NCBI GenBank assembly: GCA_031262585.1
Contig: JAISHK010000008.1
Coordinates: forward strand, 1 to 64,000
Source of the DNA: Endomicrobium sp.
GTDB taxonomy: Bacteria; Elusimicrobiota; Endomicrobiia; Endomicrobiales; Endomicrobiaceae
DNA: 64,000 nt
Direction of reading: 5' to 3'
Under the pieces are notes generated by a model that was given only the letters and a program-made list of their open reading frames with translations, was not told the DNA's origin and did not search any database. The translations under genes were made by a program, and so were the position numbers. Shown here piece by piece: positions 10,027 through 44,653 of this stretch (its first letter is position 1; every line of letters begins with the position of its first letter).

Positions 10027-13000
10027 TTAATTACTTTCATATCGCTTTTTTGTATGAGGGCCAAATCGAAATATATGTTGAAGCATAATCCTTCTATCTG
10101 GCTTGTACGATTTTTCATTATTGCTAAGTCCATAAACACCACTTAAAAATAAATTAGTCGTCAATTTATATTTCATTTCTAATTCATGCTGTAAACCAAG
10201 TTTTTTGTTAAATTCATCAAAAATTACAGAATAACCTAAAAGAAATTGATTTGTAAATTTTTTTTCTAATGAACATTTCGTACCTGATAAAAGATGAACA
10301 AAATATGAATTTTGTTCATTAGAAACAGGTTCATCCGTACAAACATATGAAATTCGGAAACTATCAACAAGTCCTATTTTACGCAAAACCGCTCTAGTAA
10401 TAGGCGTTACAAAAGTTTGCTCTAGTAAGTGCAAAACTTTTTGCCCTATAATAAAATCAATATCTCCTTCAAATCTCAATGAATTAAAATAATTATCTTG
10501 TGACGTACCTATTTTTTCAAAAACCTTATGATAATTCATATTAGGATTATCTTTTGAAGTAAATTTTATTGCATCTTTTTTAGATAAATCTTTTATATTA
10601 ACTCTGTTTATAAGTAATCTTATATTTTCAGATTCACAACCATGTTTTGAAGAAATAATAGTTTTTCCTTCAGCCGTTATAAAAACTTGATTATCATTTA
10701 TTATTTCTAATTTAGCATTCACTATATCAAAACCTACTCCAAAATAATCAAACCTTCCAGATGTTGTCTCAATAACACCGTTTACATTGATATTATTATA
10801 CTTACCATTTATACGTATTGAACCATTTATAAATGCTGAAACAAAAGAATTTTCAAATTTCGTATTATAAGCAGTTGCAAGTTCTAAATCAAACTCAGTA
10901 TTTTCCGGAATAAAAGATTTTTCATATCTATTAACACCAGGAAAAGTAAATCGAGTATTTTCAAGTATAATACGACCTGAAATTTTTGGTGCCAAAAATG
11001 ACCCCTTTATTTTTAAATCAAACCTTGGTTCTCCAAAAGAATAGTCTTTTAAAAAAGATTTCGTTCCCATGAAGTTTGACATAGGTAATTGATGAACTTC
11101 TAAAGGAATACCTTTCTCATCTGTAACAAGATTTATATCAATCTCTTTAAAACTAAAATTATTAAGTTTCATTTGACCATAAACATTCAATTGACCAGAT
11201 CCGGATTTTAAATTAAATTTATTTATTTTAATTAAATCTTCAATCATTGAAATTTCAACACACATATTTTTAATTTTACTAACATATTCCTTTGTCTCAA
11301 ATGCTCCATCAATGATTGATAAACTAGCATTATTATTAAGTTTTTCATAATTTCCACTTAAAATCCCTTTTAAAAAAGCTTTACCATCACTAGGCAAAAT
11401 ATAACCGTTTGACAAATACTTTAAAAAATTTAATTTATAATCATCAAATTTATAAAAAATATTTATAGGTTCTTTTCTCATTATAGGAGACAATTTTTTA
11501 TCAAACCAAAAAGGAAAATCTCCATCAAACAATATATGAATAGTATTTTTTTTAAAAATAGATGCTTTTTTTATATAAGCACGATTATTAAACAAGTTTA
11601 CTTCTATATCAAAATTGTCATAATGAATTTGTGCTAAACATCCTTTTGTTGAAAATAAAGATATATTACCTTTCGGATTATCAATTTTTCCGGATAAATT
11701 GGCCTTTATATTCACACTACCTTCTAAAATATTTGGCAAATTAAAAATATTAGTCATAAAACGCCAGTCAATATTTAAACTTTTCACTCCAATATTTACA
11801 AAATCTTCTGAAAAATCTGCATTTAAATCAAATAAAGTTTTATCCTTTGATATATTTAATCCTCTTATAGATATAATGTCTTTAAACATAATTAACCCTT
11901 TAATATTATACTTATTAGTACTATCAATATTAGAACAAAATTTTAAAATTTTATTGTTAATTTCATAATTAATTAAAGAAGAAACTAACTTATATTCATT
12001 TAGCCATAAATTACTAAAATCAACTATACCGTTGTAAATAAATCTTCCCTTTTGTTTTATCATTTCCCCAGATAAATTTATATTTCCAAAAATATCTATG
12101 GGACCTGCATGAACATTAATTAAAAATAAATTCAGTTCATACTTTTTACTTTTAATATTAAAAAAACCTTTATTTATTTTAATTTCACTATTTGAAATTT
12201 TAGCAGAAGTATCATTTATTACAATATTATTATTGTCAATTTCAATATTAGACTTGATATCATAAAGCTTTAAATTTTCTATATAAGCGGTATCTGCTTT
12301 TAAAAATATTTTTATTTTTTTTTCACCTTTCTTCATAAATAAACGTCCCGTTCCTGAAAAATTTCCAGTAAAAGGCAAATGAAAACCTATAAGCATATTT
12401 ACAAATTCTTCATTTAAATTATTAATCATTAAGAAAAATGTCTTGCAATTATCAAAATGTTTGCCCTGTAAAGAAATTTTTGTTCTATCTGAAATCAATA
12501 CAATTTTATTCACCTTAATTGTATTATCATCATATTCTAAAAGCGATGACAAAGAAAAAGTTTTATACGAACACTTACCATCTTTAATTACAGTTGAAAC
12601 TTTTATATTAGGACTACTCAATTTTCCAAAAAGTTTTATATGAGAATTTAAAAATCCAGATACTCTAGGATAAATGTCTTGTATATTAATATTTTTTAAA
12701 TTAAAGTTTCCTGATAATTTATTCCCTGCAAAATTCATAAATAAATAAGAATCATTTAATCCAGCATTTGATCTTATATTTGAAATTTTAAGCTTTTTAA
12801 TTGAAACTATAGCATCTGCAATAATATCTCCTAGTGACACATTAGCAATACTTGTTCCAGCGCTACGTATAACACCTTTAATCTCATTTTTTTTATCTAA
12901 ATGACCTTCAAATACTATATTCGTATTGATTGGAACTCCAGCTATTTTTAAGTTTTTTAAAGTAATATAAAGAGATGAAATAGGAATTTTATCCGTAAAC

Positions 13001-14700
13001 CCAATCAACCCCACCACATTGGCTATTATATCATTAAACTTATCTACTAACACAAAACGCTCAATATTTATCCTACATGGATTTATATTTCCTTTAATTT
13101 CAATTTTTTTAAACTCATTGTCATATAATTCACCATCAAAAGCTTTAATATCAAATTCTAATTCTAAGTTTTTTTCATACTTAATACGACCACTAGTTGT
13201 ACCCGAAATACTACTCTCACAATTATTACAAATATTAATAATATTAGTTATATTTAATCCAATAAATTTAAAATCAAACAAAGCTATCTTACCAGATCTA
13301 ATAACAGTATTCAATGCAATAGAATTATCATCTTTATAAAAATTTAGCACATACATATCTCTGGTTCGCATTATAGATCCAATCACATTTATAGCACGCA
13401 TATTAGGCATACAGAAATCTTTAAGTGCAAAATCAATTTGCCCAGAAAATTCATTTATAGAACCAAAAATGTTTATAATTCCCTTACAACCTTTCCTCAT
13501 AAAAGGTATATCAGACACACTAACATTATCTAAATGTGTTGAAACTGCACCTGTTTTTAAATTACCTTCAATAACACCGATATTTTTGTTCTTAATTAAA
13601 AGTTCTATTTTATACTTTCCACTTTTTTCATAAATAATCTCCATTTTTCTATCTAATCCATACAAACAAGACATTTTATAAATATTGTTATCATTTTTTA
13701 AGCCAAATATTTTAAAATTCAAATTTTTAAAATTTAAAAAAGATAAATTAGTCACATCAAATCTCATATTCACATTATTATTTCTACATTTAAAATCCAA
13801 TTTTAGATTTCCTTTAAAAGCACTATTAAGTTTTGAAATATCAACTTGTGATTCAATTTTAGTATCATTATTTAGTAAATGAATAAACTTAAAATTACCA
13901 AAATTACCTCTAAAATCTATATTACAATTTCCCGAAACTTGTGAAAATGAACATAATCCATCAAATTTAAATCCTTTATATAATAATTTTTCAACTGTAA
14001 TATTTTGATAAATATCTAAAGAAGAGAAATCAATTGTTCCAACTGCCCTTAAAAACATATTTATCTTATTTTTAGCTGTAAAAATAGATTTGGTAGTAAA
14101 AATATTTCCAGTTTGCCTTTCCATATTAGATTCTAATTTTATAGGCACATCGCTTGAAATATACACAATAGAATTCAAAGTGATATTATTACTACTTACA
14201 ACTATATTTGTATTTTCAATTTTTAAAAATTCTGAATTGTCAGTATTAAATCTTTTATTATTAATTTTAATTTTATCTATACAAATAAAAATTTTAGATT
14301 TTAGCATTTCAGCAAAAAATTTGCTTTTATTTCCTACTATAAACTTATAATCCTCTTTATTACTTATATAAAATTCAATATTTGAAATATATATATTACT
14401 TATAATGCCAAGCGGACGTGTAACATGTTTAAATAATTTTAAAGGATTTATCTTAAAGGTAATCTTATGAACTAAAAAAACATTTTCTTTTTTTAGATTA
14501 ATAAAAGTTATACTGAATGGAGAAACATAAAAATTATCAAATTTTATCTCAGTCCCTATTTTATTATATATATAATTTTGTATTATAGGTGAAAATATAT
14601 ATACTCTTATACAATATAAAAATATTATAAGTACAATAAAAAAAATAATTATATATTTCATATATTTTACAAATTTACGCATATCTATACATCTTAGCAA
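10027..14700 (-). CDS. tamB: TamB-like outer-membrane assembly / lipid-transport protein
   Basis: A 1557-residue protein of the TamB/AsmA-like superfamily. It has a single N-terminal membrane anchor (about residues 13-33, very hydrophobic) followed by a very long region of repeated short beta-strand patterns typical of the periplasm-spanning lipid-conducting groove. The conserved TamB (DUF490) C-terminal domain occupies roughly the last 400 residues and includes FDYFGVGFDIVNAKLEI and a final barrel-like segment ending HIFRFGPHTKKRYESN. It is expected to bridge the inner and outer membranes and help phospholipid transport or outer-membrane protein assembly. No BamA-family TamA partner is in the window. 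Despite the decay around, the whole 4.7 kb frame is unbroken, which argues for strong selection. It sits between ilvE and argH. Confidence 0.85.
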   Translation of the reverse strand: MLRCIDMRKFVKYMKYIIIFFIVLIIFLYCIRVYIFSPIIQNYIYNKIGTEIKFDNFYVSPFSITFINLKKENVFLVHKITFKINPLKLFKHVTRPLGIISNIYISNIEFYISNKEDYKFIVGNKSKFFAEMLKSKIFICIDKIKINNKRFNTDNSEFLKIENTNIVVSSNNITLNSIVYISSDVPIKLESNMERQTGNIFTTKSIFTAKNKINMFLRAVGTIDFSSLDIYQNITVEKLLYKGFKFDGLCSFSQVSGNCNIDFRGNFGNFKFIHLLNNDTKIESQVDISKLNSAFKGNLKLDFKCRNNNVNMRFDVTNLSFLNFKNLNFKIFGLKNDNNIYKMSCLYGLDRKMEIIYEKSGKYKIELLIKNKNIGVIEGNLKTGAVSTHLDNVSVSDIPFMRKGCKGIINIFGSINEFSGQIDFALKDFCMPNMRAINVIGSIMRTRDMYVLNFYKDDNSIALNTVIRSGKIALFDFKFIGLNITNIINICNNCESSISGTTSGRIKYEKNLELEFDIKAFDGELYDNEFKKIEIKGNINPCRINIERFVLVDKFNDIIANVVGLIGFTDKIPISSLYITLKNLKIAGVPINTNIVFEGHLDKKNEIKGVIRSAGTSIANVSLGDIIADAIVSIKKLKISNIRSNAGLNDSYLFMNFAGNKLSGNFNLKNINIQDIYPRVSGFLNSHIKLFGKLSSPNIKVSTVIKDGKCSYKTFSLSSLLEYDDNTIKVNKIVLISDRTKISLQGKHFDNCKTFFLMINNLNEEFVNMLIGFHLPFTGNFSGTGRLFMKKGEKKIKIFLKADTAYIENLKLYDIKSNIEIDNNNIVINDTSAKISNSEIKINKGFFNIKSKKYELNLFLINVHAGPIDIFGNINLSGEMIKQKGRFIYNGIVDFSNLWLNEYKLVSSLINYEINNKILKFCSNIDSTNKYNIKGLIMFKDIISIRGLNISKDKTLFDLNADFSEDFVNIGVKSLNIDWRFMTNIFNLPNILEGSVNIKANLSGKIDNPKGNISLFSTKGCLAQIHYDNFDIEVNLFNNRAYIKKASIFKKNTIHILFDGDFPFWFDKKLSPIMRKEPINIFYKFDDYKLNFLKYLSNGYILPSDGKAFLKGILSGNYEKLNNNASLSIIDGAFETKEYVSKIKNMCVEISMIEDLIKINKFNLKSGSGQLNVYGQMKLNNFSFKEIDINLVTDEKGIPLEVHQLPMSNFMGTKSFLKDYSFGEPRFDLKIKGSFLAPKISGRIILENTRFTFPGVNRYEKSFIPENTEFDLELATAYNTKFENSFVSAFINGSIRINGKYNNINVNGVIETTSGRFDYFGVGFDIVNAKLEIINDNQVFITAEGKTIISSKHGCESENIRLLINRVNIKDLSKKDAIKFTSKDNPNMNYHKVFEKIGTSQDNYFNSLRFEGDIDFIIGQKVLHLLEQTFVTPITRAVLRKIGLVDSFRISYVCTDEPVSNEQNSYFVHLLSGTKCSLEKKFTNQFLLGYSVIFDEFNKKLGLQHELEMKYKLTTNLFLSGVYGLSNNEKSYKPDRRIMLQHIFRFGPHTKKRYESN

Positions 14701-40625: not shown

Positions 40626-40895
40626 TCAATCTTTAGACGAAAATCTATATTCTATTTCCGTAGGCAAACAAACACCCAACTCGCTACGAACCATTCTCTC
40701 TAAATAAGACGGCTCATTTTCAAGATAATATATTCTTTTTTTTAATAAATCATTTTGATATTGTGCATATTTTAAATCTGATTTTAATCTGTTCTGTTCA
40801 AAAAAACGCCTCACAAGCGTTCTATTACCGTCATTAAAAGTCAAAATTAATATGACAACTATAAAAATAATATAACGAATTTTTAATTTTTTCAT
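40626..40895 (-). CDS. ftsB: Septum formation initiator FtsB/DivIC-like protein
   Basis: An 89-residue bitopic membrane protein: short basic cytoplasmic start (MKKLKIRY), one helix (about 8-20), then a coiled coil (about 33-60, QNRLKSDLKYAQYQNDLLKK) and the family ending with ERMVRSELGVCLPTEIEYRF. It is expected to sit at the division septum with FtsL and FtsQ. Its position downstream of eno, 124 bases away, is the classic eno-ftsB order in many bacteria, which supports the call. Confidence 0.85.
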   Translation of the reverse strand: MKKLKIRYIIFIVVILILTFNDGNRTLVRRFFEQNRLKSDLKYAQYQNDLLKKRIYYLENEPSYLERMVRSELGVCLPTEIEYRFSSKD

Positions 40896-41019: not shown

Positions 41020-42324
41020 TTAGCATATACTTGAAAAAGCTTTTTTGCCTAAGTAACTTGCTTTACTACCTAATTTTTCTTCAATTCTTAAAAGTTGATT
41101 ATATTTACACATTCTATCTGTCCTTGATGCTGATCCAGTCTTAATTTGTCCTGTATTAAGAGCTACAGCTAAATCAGCAATAATATTATCCTCTGTTTCA
41201 CCAGAACGATGAGATATAATTGCTGTATATCCAGCTTTATACGCCATTTGAACAGCTGCTATAGTTTCTGATAAAGAACCTATTTGATTAACTTTTATAA
41301 GTATTGAATTCGCAATACCTTTATCTATTCCGGCTTTAAATATTTTTGTATTTGTAACAAAGAGATCATCTCCTACGAGTTGAACTTTAGATTTAAATTC
41401 CTCAGTTAGAACTTTCCATCCATCCCAATCTACCTCACTTAATCCATCTTCAATAGAGATAATAGGATATTCTGATAAAAGATTTTTATAAAAAGTTATC
41501 ATATCTTTTGAAGTTTTAATTTTATTTTCAACTTCACCATCAAGAGTATATTTATTATTCTTATAAAGTTCACTTGCGGCAACATCTAAAGCAAAAACTA
41601 TATCCTTGCCCACATCATATCCAGCAGATTTTACAGCTTCACATATAACTTCAAGTGCTTGTGCGTTAGACGTTAAATTCGGAGCAAATCCTCCTTCATC
41701 TCCAACACCAGTAGAATAACCTTTCTTATTTAAAACTTTTCTTAAACTATGAAAAACTTCGCATCCTATTCTTAAAGCTTGATGAAAATTCTCAGCATTT
41801 ATTGGAGCAATCATAAATTCTTGTAAATCAACATTATTATCTGCATGCTCACCACCATTAACAATATTCATCAGAGGAACTGGTAAAATGTATTTATCGT
41901 TTTTGAGATTATAAATTTCTCGCACGTATTCATATACAGGAAGTTTACTTGAATTTGCACCAGCTTTAGCACAAGCAAGAGATACTCCCAAAATAGCGTT
42001 TGCACCTAAACTGCTTTTAAAATCAGTGCCATCAAGTTTTATCATTACATTATCTATTTCCTGTTGTTTTGTTATATCAAAATCTATGAGTTTAGGCATG
42101 ATTACATTATTTATATTTGAAACTGCTTTTAAGACACCTTTACCATCAAACCTATTTTTATCGTCATCTCTAAGTTCTAGAGCTTCTCGTGAACCAGTTG
42201 AAGCGCCTGAAGGAACGGATGCACGTCCGAAAGATCCATCATTTAGTTCAACATCAACTTCAACTGTTGGATTTCCACGAGAATCAATAATTTCTCTTCC
42301 TAAAATCTTTACAATTCTTGCCAT
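41020..42324 (-). CDS. eno: Enolase
   Basis: A 434-residue enolase converting 2-phosphoglycerate to phosphoenolpyruvate. Motifs include the N-terminal [31 protein letters not shown], the metal site residues within [35 protein letters not shown], and the active-site Lys in LIKVNQIGS, followed by [17 protein letters not shown]. The start at 42324 is chosen because GGAGG precedes it by 7 bases; the longer frame from 42339 would overlap that ribosome-binding site. It follows the autotransporter gene by about 30 bases and precedes ftsB. Together with gap, pgk and pckG it covers lower glycolysis or gluconeogenesis. Confidence 0.97.
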
Positions 42325-42355
42325 ACTAAAAACCTCCATTAATTATTGTCATTTT

Positions 42356-44653
42356 TTAAGATTTTTTTCGTAATAACATCTCAAAAAATTTATTAGAAAA
42401 TTCCTTAGCTAACACATTATTATTTGAAATTACTTCAACCTTTATTTTATCATTTCCTATATCTTTTATAAAGATACCAACTTCAGTTGAATCTAAACAA
42501 TAATCATTAAAGCTCTTTGAAAAATCAAAAGCTATTATATATCCTTCTTTCAAATTCTTATGAGTGACTCTCGCACCAAAAATTCTAATTATTTCTAAAG
42601 TTCTATTAAAACATTCTCGCGTTGACATATCAAAAGTTTCATCGAAATATCCTTTTTTCTCATTTTTAAATTTTTTTATAGAAAAACCTATAAATCGTTC
42701 AAAATAGTCAACAAAATCAAATGAAATTTTTACCATACCAGTAAAACTTTTACGCAAACCTCCACTCCCTTGTAAATTTATACAAAAATCGCCATTCTTT
42801 CCTATAAAACCAATTTCAATTACACTAGTGTTACCTTTTAAATTAAGTGATTCAATACTTTTATCTGCAATACTTGCGTTAACAGTTCCATCAGATTCAT
42901 TTTCAATTGCATATCCACCACAAAAGTTAAATAATTTATTTAAATCATAGAATAATTTTATCCCTATACGAAACCTATTAGATTTTACATTAGCAAATTT
43001 GATTAGTCCATCATCAGGCAAAGAAACATCTTTGTCTGCAATATAAGTGGAAAAATATCTACAGTATGTATCAAGTCCAAATTTACCTACTAAATTACAT
43101 AAATAACCAATTCCAAAATGTGCACCATAATACAAAGAATCATACTTGTATTGTGCAATCATATCATCATTAGAACCGAGCATATAAGGACTTAAAAAAT
43201 GATTTTCTATTATACCGATACGCCAAGAAATATCACTGTATAATCCATTGTTAAAACTAAATCGTTCTAATAATCCACAGCCAATGCATCGATCATTTCC
43301 ATATCCTTCTATCGATGCAATAGTAGTATCTTCAAAGCTATCAAACGTATTATAATCTCCAAGACCATATTCACAAAACAAACTGGACATTAAGTAGCCA
43401 ATTTTCAAATTGATTTTTTTAACTATACCACCAAGAAACAAATTACTGTTCGTATTAAAATTTGCCTTTGATCTGTATTCATGTTTGTCATAAGAATATA
43501 TTCCAAAGCCTGCAATAGATGCTGAAGCATTTTGACTAACACTTTCTAATATTGTTGACAATTTGCAATTTGTTATAAAGTCAGTTCCACGATTTATAAA
43601 TGAAATAGCTTGAATATATCCTTCGGAAAAAGCTATTGTTTGTTTATTAAATTTCTCTTTTTTTACAATAATATTTAAAGTATTATGTTCTAAAGATATA
43701 TCACAATCGTAAAGAGTTGCAAAACCTTGCTTCAAAATAAATTTAGCTTCTCTCATTTTTCCCAAAAAGCCTGGATTACTTTCAATGAGAGTAATTTTAT
43801 TGCCTGGTATAAGTTTATCATAATTAATACTTCTATATACATTTATTATTGTGTCTTGAAGTTCTAACATTTTTGGTGTATTATCAATAGCAATATTAGA
43901 ACCATTATCAATTAAATAAACTTCTTGCCCTCCTCCATTAACTGTAAGCATTACATCACCTGATTTTAAGTTAGCAGGTAAATAAAAATTATAAATTTGA
44001 ATTTTACTGATGCCCTTAGTAACTATTAATCCAGATGTTTTAATATTTAAAGTATTACCTGTAAATGTATTATATTTATTGCATATTGTAGTTAATCCGC
44101 CGCAAATAAATTTAATATTTACATTCTTATTTGTTGAGATCGATATTTTGTTATTCATTGCAGGTCCTTCAATAATGCACGCTCCAAAAACAAGTACATC
44201 TTCTATTTTGCCGCCGTTTATTATTACTCTATTATTATTAGCTTTACCAATATCTATTTTTGCACCATAAACATTCTTAAAAATTTGGGCATTATTAATT
44301 ATAACAGTATTGTTTTCAGCTAATCCAACTACACCATTTTTATTTTTTGATACAGCACCAAAAATTTCACCATTTACTACACCGCCATTTATTGTAATAA
44401 TATTATCCTTTACAATTGTATTGGAAAATGACCCTATAATGTCACCATTAATACTTCCATCATTAATGTTCACCTTATTGCCTACTAAGCTACTATTAAT
44501 AGGAATTGCACCATCTTCACTTAATTTACCATTTCCATAAACGGTATGTCCTACATTATGATTTATATTAATAACCTGTCCTGCAAAAATTAAACTTGAA
44601 GAAAATGTAATTAAGACTATTAAAAAACTAATCATTCTACATCTAAAGTACAT
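42356..44653 (-). CDS. Autotransporter-type outer-membrane protein with an extra C-terminal domain
   Basis: A 765-residue protein. It starts with a signal peptide (about 1-24, ending SSLIFAG). Residues about 28-230 form a parallel beta-helix passenger with degenerate repeats such as NIITINGGVVNGEIFGA and NNRVIINGGKIEDVLVFGA. A linker follows, then a 12-strand-like autotransporter barrel from about 375 to 648, ending GMVKISFDFVDYF. Barrels of this family normally end the protein. Here about 115 further residues follow (650-765), with an alpha/beta pattern (STRECFNRTLEIIRIFGARV) that I do not recognise. An AAGGA ribosome-binding site precedes the ATG. Its function is unknown; host-facing adhesion is one guess. 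Confidence 0.7.
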   Translation of the reverse strand: MYFRCRMISFLIVLITFSSSLIFAGQVININHNVGHTVYGNGKLSEDGAIPINSSLVGNKVNINDGSINGDIIGSFSNTIVKDNIITINGGVVNGEIFGAVSKNKNGVVGLAENNTVIINNAQIFKNVYGAKIDIGKANNNRVIINGGKIEDVLVFGACIIEGPAMNNKISISTNKNVNIKFICGGLTTICNKYNTFTGNTLNIKTSGLIVTKGISKIQIYNFYLPANLKSGDVMLTVNGGGQEVYLIDNGSNIAIDNTPKMLELQDTIINVYRSINYDKLIPGNKITLIESNPGFLGKMREAKFILKQGFATLYDCDISLEHNTLNIIVKKEKFNKQTIAFSEGYIQAISFINRGTDFITNCKLSTILESVSQNASASIAGFGIYSYDKHEYRSKANFNTNSNLFLGGIVKKINLKIGYLMSSLFCEYGLGDYNTFDSFEDTTIASIEGYGNDRCIGCGLLERFSFNNGLYSDISWRIGIIENHFLSPYMLGSNDDMIAQYKYDSLYYGAHFGIGYLCNLVGKFGLDTYCRYFSTYIADKDVSLPDDGLIKFANVKSNRFRIGIKLFYDLNKLFNFCGGYAIENESDGTVNASIADKSIESLNLKGNTSVIEIGFIGKNGDFCINLQGSGGLRKSFTGMVKISFDFVDYFERFIGFSIKKFKNEKKGYFDETFDMSTRECFNRTLEIIRIFGARVTHKNLKEGYIIAFDFSKSFNDYCLDSTEVGIFIKDIGNDKIKVEVISNNNVLAKEFSNKFFEMLLRKKS

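Follow-up and report, generated by a model that had tools for sequence, protein, structure and literature searches.

Classical type Va autotransporters such as EspP, AIDA-I, NalP and EstA combine a signal peptide, a beta-helix-like passenger, a pore helix and a 12-stranded translocator. Autotransporter barrels normally form the end of the protein. OmpA/OprF-type proteins are built differently, as their 8-stranded barrel precedes a periplasmic globular domain, which leaves the last-strand signal internal. Here, we analysed a stretch of 64,000 nucleotides from an Endomicrobium genome (contig JAISHK010000008.1, positions 1 to 64,000; hereafter the window) that encodes a protein of 765 amino acids sharing traits with both groups (Table 1). 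It has the signal peptide, pore helix and 12-stranded translocator of a type Va autotransporter and a passenger that may be beta-helical, but its barrel does not end the polypeptide and is followed by a separate domain of 119 residues (hereafter the tail), and the passenger is gone in most relatives of this fusion. The layout of barrel and predicted periplasmic domain is that of OmpA/OprF-type proteins, but the barrel is a 12-stranded autotransporter barrel and the tail is not an OmpA domain. In all features that were tested with a conclusive result, the protein is thus a classical autotransporter, except that the barrel is not its end. The closest counterpart of the tail is a lipoprotein encoded beside eno and ftsB in other Endomicrobiaceae, which occupies the orthologous site and contains a homologous domain, but is lipid-anchored, about 140 amino acids long and without a barrel. 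Flpp3 and BamC are likewise periplasmic lipoprotein domains and weakly resemble the tail model in fold, but have no detectable sequence relation to the tail, and the E-values of these fold matches are at least 0.001. In these bacteria, which live inside termite-gut protists, a small lipid-anchored envelope protein has thus been joined at its own site to the C-terminus of an autotransporter, an unusual order of parts. Our literature search, which covered few subscription papers and included the combination of Endomicrobium and autotransporter, returned no earlier description of such a fusion.

Table 1 Features of the fused gene and its neighbours in the window.
Feature	Position	Strand	Basis
Whole fused gene, 765 codons and stop	42356..44653	-	open reading frame without internal stop
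Residues 1-24, hydrophobic Sec-type signal peptide, cleavage after about A24, without lipobox	44582..44653	-	sequence by eye
Residues 25-335, passenger, short strand repeats (N-N-x-V-x-I-N-G-G type), beta-helix-like	43649..44581	-	sequence by eye; homologues
Residues 336-646, autotransporter translocator (pore helix and 12-stranded barrel)	42716..43648	-	AlphaFold2; PDB matches
Residues 634-646, last barrel strand (GMVKISFDF at 639-647)	42716..42754	-	model; aligns with C-terminal end of tail-less paralogues
Residues 647-765, lipoprotein-derived tail domain, core beta-alpha-beta-beta-beta-beta-alpha	42359..42715	-	homologues; models
Enolase gene, 16 bp downstream of fused gene, synteny anchor	41020..42339	-	
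ftsB/DivIC-type gene, synteny anchor	40626..40895	-	PF04977 E 5e-9

The host genome (G000) comprises 0.94 Mb. Other records of its genus are named Candidatus Endomicrobiellum or Endomicrobium and are mostly termite-gut assemblies; the genus has been reported to hold flagellate endosymbionts with ongoing genome erosion (PMC11257099).

The AlphaFold2 model of residues 336-765, based on 29 aligned relatives (mean pLDDT 84.8, pTM 0.69), consists of a pore helix and 12 strands followed by a separate alpha/beta domain. A Foldseek search with the barrel model returned autotransporter translocators first (EspP, EstA, AIDA-I, NalP and BrkA), with E-values down to 4e-13. PF03797 was matched by 12 of the 29 aligned barrels, while the window barrel itself had no Pfam match. 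Paralogues of the genus that lack the tail stop at a position corresponding to window residue ~647 (for example ...LLRISYLL-stop compared to ...MVKISFDF in the window), which indicates that the additional 119 conserved residues behind the last strand are real. The preliminary description, which had been made from the sequence of the window, proposed an autotransporter with an additional domain after its barrel, and the modelling bears this out; only the boundary, placed there at residue 650, lies about three residues too late, as the tail starts at 647. Additional barrel strands as an explanation for the tail are ruled out by two models, this one and one of the tail alone. The periplasmic position suggested for the tail is likewise supported, as the tail comes after the final strand of the barrel, whose end lies on the periplasmic side.

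Homology and gene position identify the tail as the mature portion of a predicted lipoprotein sited upstream of eno-ftsB in termite-associated genera. A search with the tail profile gave matches in 68 of the 84 genomes from the order, but in no other genome of the phylum that was searched. We read stand-alone tails of about 140 residues at 39 loci, 13 of them in the same genus and 26 elsewhere in the order. All copies read outside the genus, and hence every outgroup genus read, were stand-alone (frames of 134-201 residues); copies in G078 (a frame of 281 aa at the edge of its contig), G080, G088 and G092 were left out of the reading. Within the genus, the 13 stand-alone copies compare with 20 in-place fusions, three copies with eroded barrels, one cut by a contig end (G056) and a second, relocated fusion copy in G051. 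Stand-alone and fused tails are for most copies ~50-65% identical within the genus. A fusion with a separate small protein, as had been considered before, is therefore supported.

A lipobox cysteine was present in 37 of the 39 stand-alone tails (35 detected automatically; those of G070 and G091, in which proline at -2 failed the pattern, by eye), nearly always just before an LDYPxRxxGYS-type motif. The following residue was Ser, Ala, Thr or Leu and never Asp. This would suit sorting to the outer membrane by the E. coli rule, which is not established for the phylum of Endomicrobium. The two exceptions are G059, with tyrosine instead of the cysteine, and G017, which has no cysteine; furthermore, the near-complete genome G057 kept eno-ftsB and lost the tail, so that both the anchor and the domain can be dispensable. 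In G059 (L099:2981-3412) the site reads LMSYTVLDYP, and this copy is possibly without a lipid anchor. Upstream of eno in G057 (L307) lies a frame ending in ...VGINLRF, like the terminus of an outer-membrane protein.

An open fused frame recurs in 20 genomes of the genus, each time at the orthologous site that precedes enolase and ftsB. Chance, an assembly error in the window and a read-through or frameshift artefact are thereby ruled out. Read-through had been named as a possible objection, and it is also contradicted by the tail being the most conserved part of the fused protein. Gene order is tail-(eno)-ftsB in nearly all loci of the termite lineage, fused or stand-alone, across genera. At the junction, S-F-D-F-V-D-Y-F-E-R-F of the window aligns with S-C-S-T-L-D-Y-P-V-R-V of the lipoprotein exactly at the lipobox, and the window protein carries barrel residues at that position. 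As the fusion point falls where the lipobox stood, the lipid anchor seems to have been replaced by the barrel. Enolase itself is split into two frames in G013 (L026:5960-7285), G005 (L027:2892-4025) and G054 (L096) and is absent beside the tail in others, which fits the reported breakdown of glycolysis.

In a barrel tree that included 12 tail-less paralogues, the 17 fused barrels all grouped in a single clade (support 100/98; 100% of bootstrap trees), with the nearest tail-less sister in G020. This indicates one fusion. A species tree was inferred from LysS and RNase Y, rpoB not having been found in many assemblies including the window genome. It placed every lipoprotein-only genome, all outgroup genera included, on one side of one branch; since the support of this branch was weak (47/38, and 41/37 without long rows), the single origin is argued mainly from the barrel tree. 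Judged by the species tree alone, two origins or a reversal may have occurred. Repeated independent fusions would be permitted by the tail tree alone (9 changes among four states, few columns), but were rejected as the barrel tree gives one origin. The assembly G051 contains both states (L091, L092), a lipoprotein at eno-ftsB and, in front of a dxr-like gene on a different contig, a fused copy; the barrel of this fused copy groups with those of G009, G012 and G050, due to either transfer or mis-binning. Very large OmpA-domain proteins in G008 and G058 were not matched by the barrel profile and were not counted as fusions.

Only the fusions in the window, G020 and G046 kept a passenger. That of the window is homologous to the G020 fusion passenger (34% identity, E 8e-39) and to passengers of tail-less paralogues. 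The other fusions consist of signal peptide, barrel and tail (~440-525 residues). In G011, G003 and G055 the barrel is mostly lost, while a signal-like N-terminus and the tail are kept in frame. In seven of eight fused pairs, dN/dS of the tail was 0.11-0.28 and below that of the upstream part; the pair G009/G012 gave 0.85 for the tail, a value from very few changes. The tail is under purifying selection.

We therefore regard it as probable that the protein is a periplasmic domain tethered to the outer membrane, namely an ancestral envelope lipoprotein that had its lipid anchor swapped for an autotransporter barrel in one fusion event. On the sequence evidence, an autotransporter comprising signal peptide, passenger and barrel took the place of the lipoprotein signal peptide and cysteine in one sub-clade of the genus. 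By the barrel tree this was a single event, and it was followed by passenger loss in most lineages and barrel loss in three, with conservation of the tail. The fused protein would be exported via Sec, and its barrel would enter the outer membrane by means of the last-strand signal, which is now internal. Internal signals are known to work: only 68% of the autotransporters in one survey had a beta-motif that was restricted to the last strand (PMC3419190), and OmpC has served to test such signals (PMC10945584). The tail would be left on the periplasmic face, where the lipid anchor formerly held it; the barrel would thus be its replacement anchor, and selection would mainly keep the tail and not the passenger. 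As for the role of the tail, the weak fold resemblance of its model to BamC and Flpp3 allows a guess that it might be a periplasmic adaptor in envelope maintenance or assembly.

Alternatively, the fusion could be a neutral by-product of genome erosion, in which a deletion joined two neighbours, the barrel is in the process of being lost and the function of the tail is unchanged by its new position. The genomes of the genus are eroding (PMC11257099), passengers were lost repeatedly, the barrel is gone in G011, G003 and G055 while the tail stays, and dN/dS of the barrel region exceeds that of the tail. However, the fused barrel stays open in 20 genomes across the sub-clade, and dN/dS of the upstream region is ~0.23-0.68 and thus below 1 in all eight fused pairs. 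This argues for maintenance of the barrel itself in most lineages and makes the neutral explanation unlikely.

Two further explanations assign a specific function to the tail. The tail-only model (58 relatives; pLDDT 84, pTM 0.77) found its best PDB matches in Flpp3 (E 1e-3 to 7e-3), KA1 domains and both BamC domains (E 3e-3 to 1.5e-2; TM ~0.45-0.63). The tail could therefore be a BamC-type accessory domain of the BAM machinery that aids barrel assembly and is tethered by the fusion to its substrate barrel; BamBCD are reported to be absent from all Endomicrobiaceae (PMC11257099), so that this role is vacant. Yet no fold match was below E 0.001, KA1 and other helix-grip-like folds scored equally, the tail family was found only within the order among the genomes of the phylum that were searched, and a profile search of PDB sequences with the tail yielded no BamC but only an unrelated hypothetical protein (E 0.036). 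We thus treat the weak resemblance of the model to BamC as a lead only, one that sequence profiles do not support, and consider this role of the tail improbable. More doubtful still is the extended scenario, in which a lineage-specific lipoprotein of BamC-like fold assumed some of the work of barrel assembly, BamBCD being absent from the family, and one clade exchanged its lipid anchor for a substrate-type barrel; if true, the fusion would be an outer-membrane protein that carries its own assembly or maintenance factor. The preliminary description had also suggested that the tail could bind peptidoglycan, in which case the fusion would tie the outer membrane to the wall as OmpA does. The passenger-less fusions are indeed laid out like OmpA, and in a related autotransporter (L053) an OmpA domain follows the barrel. 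The tail, however, had no match to OmpA (PF00691), LysM, SPOR or any other Pfam or NCBIfam domain, and the window genome retains a separate OmpA-domain protein of Pal size. Peptidoglycan binding is therefore unsupported and appears very improbable, the least likely of these readings.

If the lipid anchor was indeed replaced by the barrel, the locus represents a natural case of a lipid anchor giving way to a transmembrane barrel at a known position, and related genomes still preserve the ancestral, the fused and the eroded stage. It also suggests that a folded periplasmic domain can be accommodated after the final strand of an autotransporter barrel, a point of relevance to the reading of terminal and internal signals by BAM. 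Furthermore, it points to a conserved, uncharacterised envelope lipoprotein that is mostly kept by eroding endosymbiont genomes.

Other autotransporters of the genus also extend beyond their barrels. In L053:624-3410 (G022), an OmpA peptidoglycan-binding domain (PF00691, E 1e-18) comes after a barrel of the same family, which makes this another type of post-barrel fusion. The paralogues L046:350-3181 (G019) and L051:643-3573 (G004) carry a basic, lysine-rich and probably helical extension of ~65-80 residues after the barrel; L050, a close relative, ends at the barrel. The barrel of L044:759-3356 (G020) is near-identical to that of L055 and is followed by ~140 extra C-terminal residues, possibly due to a frame change rather than a domain. 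Together, these extensions indicate that post-barrel additions recur in the genus. Elsewhere in the window (10027-14700, minus strand), we found a gene for a TamB-type protein of 1557 amino acids (PF04357, E 6e-12), an outer-membrane assembly factor that could act on the fused barrel.
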